NCBI GenBank assembly: GCA_903875465.1
Contig: CAIQWB010000101.1
Span: 1 to 52,149, forward strand
Direction of reading: 5' to 3'
Origin: an uncultured Verrucomicrobia subdivision 3 bacterium
GTDB taxonomy: Bacteria; Verrucomicrobiota; Verrucomicrobiia; Limisphaerales; UBA11358
Length of the DNA stretch: 52,149 nucleotides
The notes under the pieces are model-generated. The model had not been told where the DNA came from and did not search any database. It saw only the letters and a program-made list of their open reading frames with translations. The position numbers and the translations under genes were made by a program. How positions within the stretch are numbered: the stretch's first letter is position 1; each line of letters starts with the position of its first letter. Below are positions 28,892 through 31,981 of the stretch, piece after piece.

Positions 28892-30142
28892 ATGGCTTCC
28901 GAAACTGTGCAACATCATCGCGGCTGGACGGTAACCTTCGCTGGTTTGGGCATCAACCTCGCCCTGGGCGTGCTTTACACGTGGAGTTTGTTCAAAGCGG
29001 CCATTGAAAAGGAATTTGGCTGGAAGGGTGCGCAATTGAATGATCCTTACGCCCTCTGCTGCCTGGTATTTGCCTTTACGATGATTCTGGCAGGCCGCTG
29101 TCAGGATAAAATGGGACCGCGGCTCACGGCATCGCTCGGTGGAGTGCTGGTGGGGCTGGGGCTGCTGCTGGTTTCCACGACGAATCATTACGGCACCTGG
29201 TTGCTCGGCTTTGGGGTGCTGGTGGGGGTGGGCATTGGTTTTGGTTATGCCTCGGCCACGCCGCCCGCGCTCAAATGGTTTCCGCCCGCGAAGACAGGTT
29301 TGATTGCCGGACTGGTAGTGGCCGGTTTCGGGCTGGCCCCGGTTTATCTGGCGCCCACCTCGGATTATTTGCTGCGTAATTTTGGCATTCTTAAATCCAT
29401 GATGATCTTTGGCGGTGCGTTTACGGTGATTGTCTGCGGCCTGGCGCAATGGCTGGTGAATCCCACCGCGGAACAAATCGGCGGGATCAAAGCGCAGGCC
29501 GCGCGCCTGGCGAATTCAGTCCCGATTGTGGATTGCACGCCGGGACAAATCCTGCGGCAGCCCGGTTTCTGGCTGCTCTGGGTGATCTACTTTATCGGCG
29601 CGGGCGCGGGTTTGATGGTGATCAGCAGTGTGAGTGGCATGGCGAAGAAAACGATGGGGGACCAGGCGTTCATCGCGGTGGCGGTGATGGCCATTGGCAA
29701 TGCCGGCGGCCGCATCGTGGCGGGGGTGTTGTCGGACAGGATTGGCCGGCGCTGGACCCTGATGCTGGTTCTGCTGGTCCAGGCCGCGCTGATGTTCATG
29801 GCCATTCCAGTGACGGCCGCGACGGATGGGGCGAAATTCATCATCGTTTTGTTGGCGACATTTATCGGGTTTAATTACGGAGCCAACCTGGCACTGTTCC
29901 CATCCTTCACCAAGGACCTGTGGGGCTTGAAAAATTTTGGTATGAATTACGGGGTCCTCTTCACCGCCTGGGGCGTGGGTGGTTTTGCCTTGAGCCGGTT
30001 GCAAGCGATGCTCTTTGCGGCGAGCAAGGACTCGGCGGGACATGGAAATTATGCCTCGTCCTTTATCACGGCCGGGGTGTTGTTGCTGGTGGGCGGCGCG
30101 CTGACGCTGGGGATTCGGACAAAGGCGGCAGCAAAAGTTTGA
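28892..30142 (+). CDS. OFA-family MFS transporter (oxalate/formate antiporter-like)
   Basis: 416 residues, 12 predicted membrane segments. The start RGWTVTFAGLGINLALGVLYTWSLFKAAIE and the motif AGRCQDKMGPRLTASLGG are characteristic of the OFA subfamily; GVGIGFGYASATPPALKWFPPAKTGLIAGLVVAG and GRIVAGVLSDRIGRRWTL follow. OFA proteins exchange or symport small carboxylates (oxalate, formate, pyruvate and others). Substrate here is unknown because no metabolic gene is linked. A TATAAT sequence at 28878-28883 lies only 9 bases before the ATG at 28892, and no Shine-Dalgarno is visible, so the transcript may be leaderless; no clear -35 was found. Confidence 0.88.
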   Translation: MASETVQHHRGWTVTFAGLGINLALGVLYTWSLFKAAIEKEFGWKGAQLNDPYALCCLVFAFTMILAGRCQDKMGPRLTASLGGVLVGLGLLLVSTTNHYGTWLLGFGVLVGVGIGFGYASATPPALKWFPPAKTGLIAGLVVAGFGLAPVYLAPTSDYLLRNFGILKSMMIFGGAFTVIVCGLAQWLVNPTAEQIGGIKAQAARLANSVPIVDCTPGQILRQPGFWLLWVIYFIGAGAGLMVISSVSGMAKKTMGDQAFIAVAVMAIGNAGGRIVAGVLSDRIGRRWTLMLVLLVQAALMFMAIPVTAATDGAKFIIVLLATFIGFNYGANLALFPSFTKDLWGLKNFGMNYGVLFTAWGVGGFALSRLQAMLFAASKDSAGHGNYASSFITAGVLLLVGGALTLGIRTKAAAKV

Positions 30143-30258
30143 GTTTCCTTTCCCCCCAAGCCGGCCGGGCGAAAGACAATAGTCCACCCGTTTCAACAAT
30201 GTGTTTCCAAGGTGGCGCGGCTGAAGTCCCGCTGGGAAAGGCAGAAATTCGGGTTAAA

Positions 30259-30483
30259 CCCGAGCTCCGAAATTAAAACGGCCGGTCGGCAGCCATCGCT
30301 TGGGCATAAACGCTTGGGAACATTGGCTTCCCAAGCCGCTGCCAAGCAGTTGCCCATTTAAGGATGTGCGCTGCGCGCAGAGGCAGTCTCACCAGACCAC
30401 TGCGGGTATGCCGGCAATTTTTCCAAAGGGTTTCTGCTCCAACAGCTTGAGACATCCCAGCCATTTTAATTTCGGAGTTCGGG
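30259..30483. mobile_element. MITE-like element with 23-bp terminal inverted repeats
   Basis: The ends 30259-30281 and 30461-30483 are inverted copies that differ at only 2 of 23 positions (core CTCCGAAATTAAAA). TTAA lies just outside each end (30254-30257 and 30485-30488), compatible with a target-site duplication though TTAA is itself palindromic. The 225-bp unit has no ORF. Inside, GCTTGGGAA (30312-30320) and TTCCCAAGC (30328-30336) form a 9-bp stem. The left end also begins with the hyphenated palindrome CGGGTT-A-AACCCG (30250-30262). The right end abuts the bioA stop codon. A non-autonomous transposable element is the best explanation; a long terminator or structured RNA is the alternative. 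Confidence 0.55.
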
Positions 30484-30484
30484 A

Positions 30485-31981
30485 TTAATGCAAAACCTCC
30501 CCAATCGCCTCCGCCAACACCCCCACCATCCGCTTCACCTCCTTATCTGTGGTGCAATATGGCGGCATCAATACAATCACACTTCCAATCGACCGGGTAA
30601 GCACCCCGCGCCGGGCCATGGCCTCACAGACCCGGATGCCCGCCCGTTCACTCAATGCATAAGGCGCGCGCGTCTGCCAGTTTTTCACGAGTTCAACGCC
30701 CGCGACCAAGCCCACCTGGCGGATGTCGCCCACGTGGGGCAGGGTCCACAACGACTTCAACTCCTGCTGCAAGGTTTGTTGCAATCGCGCCCGGTCCCGG
30801 ACTGAAGCGGCGCTCTGCAATAAGTCCAGGCTCGCCAGCCCGGCCGCCGCCCCCAACTGGTTGCCCGTAAAACTATGCCCATGGAAAAAGGTCTTGAACT
30901 CCGCGTACTCGCCGAGGAAGGCATCAAACACGCGCTGCGTGGTGAGGGTGGCCGCCATGGGCAGATAACCGCCGGTCAATCCCTTGGCCAGGCAAAGGAA
31001 ATCCGGTTGAATGCCTGTGCGCGTGGCGGCGAAGAGGTTGGTGTTCGCCGGGTCGGCCACGGCAGCGGCAGAGGCCTCCGCGGTGACATGGCAGGTCAGG
31101 CCGGTGCGGCCAAAGCCGGTCATGACTTCATCCGCGATGAGCAAAGCCCCATGGGCCCGGGCGAGGTCGGTCACTTGTTCCAGCCAGCCGCTCGGTTGTG
31201 GAATCATGCCGGCAGCGCCTTGCATGAGGGGCTCGTAAACAAAGGCGGCATAAGGGTTGCCCCGGCGTTTTTGGGCAGTGAACTTTTTCGCCACCAGTCC
31301 CGTGCATTCCCAGTGGCACTTGCGATATTTGCGGGCGTCCTCCCGCTGGGTTTCGGCGCGGTTGAAAGGGCAGCGGTAACAATAGGGGGCCATCACTTGG
31401 TCGGTCTTGAACAGCATCCCGCCAAAACTTTTATGGAACAAGTCAATGTGCCCCAGTGACACCGCGCCAATCGTATCCCCATGGTAGGCACCCGTCAGGG
31501 ACAGGAATTTCGGGCGCGTTATGGGTCCGCGGGCGCGGCGGGTGTATTCATAGGCCAGCTTGAGCGCCACTTCCAGGGCGGTGGAACCGTTGTCACTGAA
31601 AAACACTTTGGCGAGTTTATCCGGAGCCGCCAGCGCCGGCTTTTTACGTTTTCCGGCCACCGCCTGGCGCGGGGTGACTTGCGCTGCCGCCACCAGTTTT
31701 TCCGCCAACACGCTGGCTGGCTCATTGGCCAGACCCAGCGCGGAACTATGCGATATTTGTTTTAACTGCCGGATGATGGCCGCGTTCAGTTGGGGGTGGC
31801 GGTGGCCGTGCAAATTGGTCCAGATGGAAGCATTAGCGTCCAGATACTGGTGGCCGTGCACATCGGTGAGCGTGGCCCCCTTGCCGGAGGTGATAACGAT
31901 TGGCTCCGTGTGCAACCAGTCGCGCATCTGGGTGAAGGGATGCCAGACGTACTGTTGATCCAGTTTTGCGAAGGGATTCAT
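30485..31981 (-). CDS. bioA: Adenosylmethionine-8-amino-7-oxononanoate aminotransferase
   Basis: 498 residues, longer than the usual 430-450. It transfers an amino group from SAM to KAPA to give DAPA in biotin synthesis, using PLP. Motifs: YVWHPFTQMRDW, DANASIWTNLHGHRHP, NGSTALEVALKLAYEYTRR, TGAYHGDTIGAVSLG, DEVMTGFGRTG, CLAKGLTGGYLPMAATL with the PLP Lys, and FFHGHSFTGNQLG. Extra length comes from low-complexity inserts near residues 100-115 (GKRKKPALAAPDK) and 300-320 (AEASAAAVADPANTN). The ATG at 31981 overlaps the bioF stop as ATGA. The TAA stop directly touches the MITE-like element. No bioB or bioD lies in the window. Confidence 0.94.
   Translation of the reverse strand: MNPFAKLDQQYVWHPFTQMRDWLHTEPIVITSGKGATLTDVHGHQYLDANASIWTNLHGHRHPQLNAAIIRQLKQISHSSALGLANEPASVLAEKLVAAAQVTPRQAVAGKRKKPALAAPDKLAKVFFSDNGSTALEVALKLAYEYTRRARGPITRPKFLSLTGAYHGDTIGAVSLGHIDLFHKSFGGMLFKTDQVMAPYCYRCPFNRAETQREDARKYRKCHWECTGLVAKKFTAQKRRGNPYAAFVYEPLMQGAAGMIPQPSGWLEQVTDLARAHGALLIADEVMTGFGRTGLTCHVTAEASAAAVADPANTNLFAATRTGIQPDFLCLAKGLTGGYLPMAATLTTQRVFDAFLGEYAEFKTFFHGHSFTGNQLGAAAGLASLDLLQSAASVRDRARLQQTLQQELKSLWTLPHVGDIRQVGLVAGVELVKNWQTRAPYALSERAGIRVCEAMARRGVLTRSIGSVIVLMPPYCTTDKEVKRMVGVLAEAIGEVLH

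Follow-up and report, generated by a model that had tools for sequence, protein, structure and literature searches.

Type I MITEs are described as short multicopy elements with ends common to an insertion sequence (PMC4133298, PMC3542288), and TIMEs as Tn3-derived, non-autonomous miniature elements that have fold energies of -70 to -115 kcal/mol and are usually present in single copy (PMC4133298). IS1247, of the IS1380 family, is described as a 1672-bp element with an IR of 16/13 and a DR of 5 bp (PMC3281130), and IS1380 as a distant relative of piggyBac, with which it has 4-bp target-site duplications and CC..GG termini in common (PMC10045372).

The element studied here lies at positions 30259 to 30483 of the window, a 52,149-nucleotide stretch of DNA from an uncultured Verrucomicrobia subdivision 3 bacterium. 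It resembles type I MITEs in size, terminal inverted repeats (TIRs), target duplication, high copy number and stable RNA fold, but the insertion sequence with matching ends was found in relatives and not in its own assembly. Its family is like the IS1380-family insertion sequences in having TIRs of about 13 to 16 bp, a 5-bp duplication and partner transposases that score over the NF033539 cut-off; unlike them, the window element has no transposase, and its core is unrelated to the insertion sequence interiors examined. Tn3 makes a 5-bp duplication, and TIMEs have Tn3-type ends of about 38 bp; the window element is likewise non-autonomous, with similar fold energies and a 5-bp duplication, but its ends match the IS1380 clade. 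The target of piggyBac is TTAA. Likened by features alone, the window element shares CC..GG termini and a TTAA-like palindromic target with piggyBac, but is bacterial and has a 5-bp TTNAA target whose centre base is free. Elements of this kind are already known, and no description of this MITE family and its partner was found in the titles and abstract openings of the open-licence papers that the searches listed. Its interest is moderate, the biology being familiar in kind, the partner informative and the cores unusually varied.

The initial annotation had described a 225-bp element with terminal inverted repeats, which was borne out. The element (30259-30483; coordinates without a sign are given without strand) runs from CCCGAGCTCC to GGAGTTCGGG, with a 27-bp left TIR at 30259-30285 (+), CCCGAGCTCCGAAATTAAAACGGCCGG, and a 27-bp right TIR at 30457-30483 (-), which reads CCCGAACTCCGAAATTAAAATGGCTGG when inverted and pairs with the left at 24 of 27 positions. 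The IS1380-type partner elements share the outer 13-16 bp, and a repeat search that included the flanking bases returned arms of 32 nt at 88%. The 5-bp target copies are TTAAA on the left (30254-30258), which fits TTNAA, and ATTAA on the right (30484-30488), which differs from it and holds the bioA stop codon. In a consensus fold of 30 copies, a left subterminal arm at 30300-30320 (columns 42-63) pairs with a right arm at 30421-30442 (columns 166-187) to form a long fold-back. The internal 9-bp stem noted previously is present at 30312-30320/30328-30336; with its loop of 7 it forms a hairpin at 30312-30336 that is a pairing alternative to the long fold-back, and the 162-bp copies of the family (e.g., L100) are devoid of the stretch holding its loop and right arm. 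The absence of open reading frames that had been claimed held for long ones; mechanical frames of 63 aa (30273-30464, -) and 62 aa (30300-30488, +, TTG start) exist in or over the element, the former being the longest internal frame. These frames were open over at least 60 codons in 22/30 and 28/30 copies, respectively, about as would be expected at 4% divergence; nothing beyond openness hints at genes, and the core has no recognisable gene.

A search of the own genome with the window stretch gave 166 first-look candidates, and all 40 of those scored aligned over at least 212 of 261 query bases, most with 91-95% identity to the query. When up to 2 mismatches were allowed, the TIR pattern was found at 224 sites in this genome (114 forward and 110 reverse), compared with 0 for the reversed-pattern control. 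From three overlapping site lists and the fetched stretches, at least 61 distinct paired copies were collected; 27 were exactly 225 bp, 13 were 162 bp, three were 505-581 bp and the other 18 were 62-232 bp in length. The further copies for which the initial annotation had called are thus plentiful. Many single TIRs sit at contig ends, as expected because a repeat breaks assemblies, and the family accounts for many contig breaks in the own assembly. Within the 225-bp class, thirty copies of 223-227 bp diverged by 2.7-6.2% from the consensus sequence (mean, 4.2%) and by 1.8-10.3% among themselves; the expansion is therefore not very recent. Among 59 genomes searched with the window 225-bp sequence and its flanks, only 5 had a match, the own genome being one of these; in two of the five the matching stretches were short and weak. 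The specific TIR had 0 matches in viral_contigs. Two copies (L058 and L059) were located on contig CAIXXC010000065.1, filed under an uncultured Rhodospirillales MAG. This contig is 99.9% identical to a contig of the own genome (C27), both MITE insertions are common to the two, and the label is probably a binning error.

When the element was taken as CCCG...CGGG, an identical 5-mer was present on both sides in 39 of the 61 copies; at lengths of 3, 4, 6, 7 and 8, only 0, 2, 1, 0 and 0 copies had identical flanks. In 10,000 random re-pairings of left and right flanks, identical 5-mers numbered 11.4 on average and never more than 21, versus the 39 observed. The centre base of the target agreed in 43/61 copies (re-pairing mean, 21.8; maximum, 35), and TTNAA was seen in 84 of 122 flanks. 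A fixed TTAA could not account for this agreement at a free centre base. As read from these flanks, the duplicated target over the family is 5 bp, with the consensus TTNAA and not TTAA. It had been proposed that TTAA stands at both sides of the window element; this tetranucleotide is indeed there, at 30254-30257 and 30485-30488, but the family target is the 5-bp TTNAA. The window copy is among the 22/61 with non-identical flanks, which could each have arisen from mutation, recombination between copies or short-read misassembly.

The element stands between two convergent genes, an MFS transporter gene (28892-30142, +; 416 aa), which ends 116 bp before it, and bioA (30485-31981, -), encoding a class-III aminotransferase of 498 aa. 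The reported contact with the bioA stop codon was confirmed: the codon (30485-30487, minus strand) lies inside the right-hand 5-mer, separated from the element by a single base. The length of BioA falls within the range of 479-514 aa in relatives, and the insertion therefore left bioA intact. The reading frame was kept because the target itself carries TAA, and a MITE thus accounts for an element on a stop codon without harm to the gene. A bioA match was found in 45 of 49 genomes of the genus, of which 30 were given as loci (29 relatives and the own genome). No TIR pair followed bioA in the 29 same-genus loci over the 163-903 bp searched; an isolated TIR site with 2 mismatches was seen after bioA in three loci (L244, 85 bp; L232, 582 bp; L236, 739 bp). 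In the nearest relative (G012), BioA is 86% identical, and the genus search with the TTNAA-flanked TIR pattern at up to 1 mismatch gave no match. This absence agrees with insertion in the window lineage, as an absence only, since the intergenic DNA was not alignable.

An uninterrupted site was found for another copy. A 225-bp copy on own contig C54 (L012:1501-1725) interrupts a hicA-like toxin-antitoxin gene, and its flanks, once joined, aligned across the junction with a gene from a genome of the same genus, G033, at 89 of 119 bases (97 bases to one side of the junction, 21 to the other). The G033 gene encodes an 80-aa HicA-type RNase (PF07927, 38.8 bits; cut-off, 27) and, by this alignment, is a homologue, though not necessarily the orthologue, of the interrupted gene. 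The search for empty sites in relatives suggested by the initial annotation therefore yielded one homologous uninterrupted site, and at bioA only the absence described above. A site in G012 corresponding to copy L077 was rejected as an empty site; the element is absent there, but the flank match of 9 bases did not exceed the one obtained with an unrelated copy. Among six translations examined in the joined-flank test for interrupted genes, there was no convincing case.

A transposase with the same ends, which had also been sought, was found in relatives and was of IS1380 type; none was found in the own assembly (96% complete), which was searched with PF13701, the L194 protein and PF01609. PF13701 had 0 matches there and none in G033, compared with matches in 144 of 320 genomes of the order, and the L194 protein (E-value threshold, 1e-20) had 0 matches there and matches in 48 of the 320 genomes. 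G033 is rich in MITEs (84+68 TIR sites) and keeps a 95-residue fragment of an L194-type transposase at 57%. Three PF01609 matches in the own genome (L060-L062, of which one scores under the cut-off) were rejected, as their surroundings were without the 20-base TIR at up to 5 mismatches; those of L062 contained only TIR sites with 6 and 7 mismatches.

When up to 1 mismatch was allowed, the TTNAA-flanked TIR was present in 20 of 49 genomes of the genus, the own genome included. Across the 320 genomes of the order, 29 contained the exact general form of the TIR, and these represent 18 of 118 genera; reversed controls gave 0 throughout. Most pairs in 40 stretches around general-TIR sites were short elements, and one, L142 (G127), spans 1528 bp with a TIR at both ends and a transposase in two frames, whose fragments P0001 (108.4 bits) and P0002 (70.1 bits) fall below the NF033539 cut-off of 180. 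Two further elements came from 20 additional IS1380-type matches that were fetched: L207 (G242), of 1509 bp, has a TIR at both ends and an open 473-aa transposase (NF033539, 233.4 bits), and L194 (G245) has an open 472-aa transposase (227.7 bits) with a TIR at one end and a contig cut at the other. Both proteins are above the curated cut-off and are named IS1380 transposases by NCBIfam. L214 (G117) has TIRs at both ends over 1520 bp, TTAAA on both sides and a transposase match in two pieces. L275 (G070), from the window's own genus, has TIRs at both ends, 1473 bp apart, and transposase matches in two pieces. The transposase was thus open in only two of five partner elements (L207 and L194), and four of the five share both ends with the MITE.

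These insertion sequences of 1473-1528 bp, from other species of the genus and order, have in common with the MITE the outer 13-16 bp and the TTNAA flanks. Their CCCG..CGGG termini and the TTAAA/TTAAA flanks of L214 agree with the CC..GG termini and 4-5 bp duplication of IS1380 elements; the flanks of L142 (TTTAA/TTCAA) differ at the centre, L207, L194 and L275 are each without one flank, and one end of L214 is CCTG. Only the ends are shared between the MITE and the insertion sequences, over 13-17 bp and at best 28 bp with gaps, and the lowest E-value for the core was 0.49. The MITE is therefore not a simple deletion derivative.

The partner transposases are 55-78% identical to one another, and other IS1380 matches in the order are 23-37% identical to them or unalignable. 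In a quick tree of 20 proteins, the four TIR-bearing transposases formed one clade with an SH-aLRT of 100, only the first part of L142 having been used. Among the 16 comparison rows, two (L197 and L209) have long branches and odd composition and are perhaps in the wrong frame. Twenty further stretches with matches to transposases of the clade had the TIR at 0-1 mismatch in 11, at 2 mismatches in 6 and not at all in 3; some of the 2-mismatch sites may be due to chance. Across 50 IS1380 loci, the TIR was found at 0-1 mismatch in five (L188, L189, L194, L207 and L210, of which L189 overlaps L214) and at 2 mismatches in two of the 45 others.

Several other candidate partners were rejected. The L210/L217 transposase is unalignable with the clade and has a lone TIR at 1 mismatch. 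TIR pairs 1.8-3.8 kb apart in G033 and G063 (L103 and L104) are separate short elements with ordinary genes between them, and the long pairs that weak TIRs delimit in L124 and L134 enclose unrelated genes. L123, the only match of the general TIR in viral_contigs, has no partner end within the 13.7 kb searched of its 42.8 kb.

Two side observations concern the insertion sequences. In G245, 8 of 11 listed TIR sites lie about 150 bp or less from a contig end (C43, C134, C147, C194, C214, C533, C541 and C542), the four stretches read at contig ends (L160-L163) continue alike, and the insertion sequence is probably multicopy in this genome. Several IS1380 elements have a TIR-like site facing one end at 177 bp (L256:131-307 and L258:1297-1473), which is possibly due to chance or a route to miniature copies.

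Judged by its sequence, the window element is a genuine MITE and one copy of a large family. Collectively, the ends, the target and the transposase clade suggest that it is mobile and very probably mobilised in trans by an IS1380-family transposase. Such an enzyme would recognise the terminal CCCGAANNCCGAARTN sequence, move the MITE, presumably by cut-and-paste, insert it at TTNAA and duplicate five target bases; this copy would have landed in a target containing the bioA stop codon. The proposal of a MITE-like mobile element is supported by the copy number, the 5-bp target duplication, the one uninterrupted homologous site and the same-ended transposase family. In the own species, the transposase supply would have been lost or would have come transiently. 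A large orphan MITE family is in this way tied to a named transposase family, and the MITE with an L207- or L194-type transposase forms a testable pair for trans-mobilisation.

Mobilisation by a different, unsampled transposase with similar ends would fit both the lack of any IS1380 transposase found in the own assembly and the MITE cores that are unrelated to the insertion sequence interiors. It is nevertheless unlikely, as the ends and the 5-bp TTNAA target are two separate features that both agree with the IS1380 clade, with TTAAA on both sides of L214, and the three PF01609 matches of the own genome are without these ends. Even less probable, to the point of being remote, is a REP/BIME-type repeat spread by a RAYT (Y1 HuH) transposase; the element is palindromic and occurs in many copies, but REPs are not known to have a 5-bp target duplication or long TIRs, and both are found here.

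The initial annotation had further suggested that the element may terminate both convergent genes. Retention of the element for an effect on these two genes, as a terminator acting in both directions or as a hairpin that stabilises mRNA, would accord with its position between them and with its very stable fold-back: the fold energies were -100.7 and -105.2 kcal/mol, with z-scores of -5.7 (+ strand) and -5.6 (- strand), and 0 of 200 shuffles were as stable. By crude gene calls, 9 of 34 copies also have an ORF stop no more than 10 bp away; starts and stops near copies were not comparable, since in nine rows the ORF runs into the element edge. We read this proximity as a by-product of the TTNAA target, which contains TAA. 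A consensus scan for a GC stem followed by a T run found one terminator-like match versus 0.8 expected, and there were 0 Rfam matches at E up to 1. None of 62 predicted pairs had changed on both sides among the 30 copies (covariation term, 0.05); a single copy conserved with covariation had been named beforehand as the finding that would point to an RNA or terminator, whereas the copies are many and covariation is absent. Copies with enough flank (34/61; crude ORF-based calls) lay at 10 convergent, 6 divergent and 18 tandem sites, and the 29 same-genus bioA loci have no TIR pair, apart from the isolated 2-mismatch sites in three of them. The terminator proposal is thus not supported, and retention for such an effect is quite improbable, though a strong hairpin may affect read-through transcripts. 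The preferred reading remains a MITE moved in trans by an IS1380-family transposase.

The same ends also enclose other cores. Clustering of the sequences enclosed by 122 distinct short pairs, 121 of which had sufficient length, gave 14 clusters. Eleven of these were counted; the three set aside as doubtful comprise pairs of 126-177 bp located within the insertion sequences, two pairs of 83-101 bp that overlap in repetitive DNA, and a lone 80-bp pair. At least one member had identical 5-mers on both sides in 8 of the 11 core clusters, and 4 of the 11 were single-member. The window family was the largest cluster, with 79 members from G000, G033, G008, G063 and the apparently mislabelled contig. 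Several unrelated core clusters have a common length of 162-164 bp. Common ends around unrelated cores permit a direct test of the needs of the enzyme. It is quite possible, and we suggest it tentatively, that one IS1380 clade serves as a shared mobiliser for the whole order: its 16-bp ends and TTNAA would enclose at least 8 unrelated non-coding cores (about 150-230 bp, in different genera) that were captured independently, with more than 100 end sites in the window species and in G033 though no intact clade transposase was found there, the supply being lost or coming and going between species.

In other genomes, the same TIR, mostly with TTNAA-like flanks, was observed around unrelated cores (L106, L108, L122, L127, L136-L141 and L150-L159), several of which have AAAGAACGCAAAGAGC-like repeats or GC palindromes.

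A second element, with the ends GGTTCCTCGCTGTTTTCGGTGG (one base differs in L063), was nested at the same place in three MITE copies (L063:345-955, L064:378-925 and L065:2225-2757), flanked in each by the 8-bp TCCCAGCC on both sides. The L063 composite is flanked by CTAAA on both sides, and the flanks of L064 and L065 are non-identical; the MITE and the second element seem to move as a unit. At four other sites in the own genome (L080:3055-3560, L074, L079 and L068), one MITE end was joined to the start of the second element with no opposite end seen, L079:6809 running into a contig end. We regard these four as decayed or one-ended derivatives.
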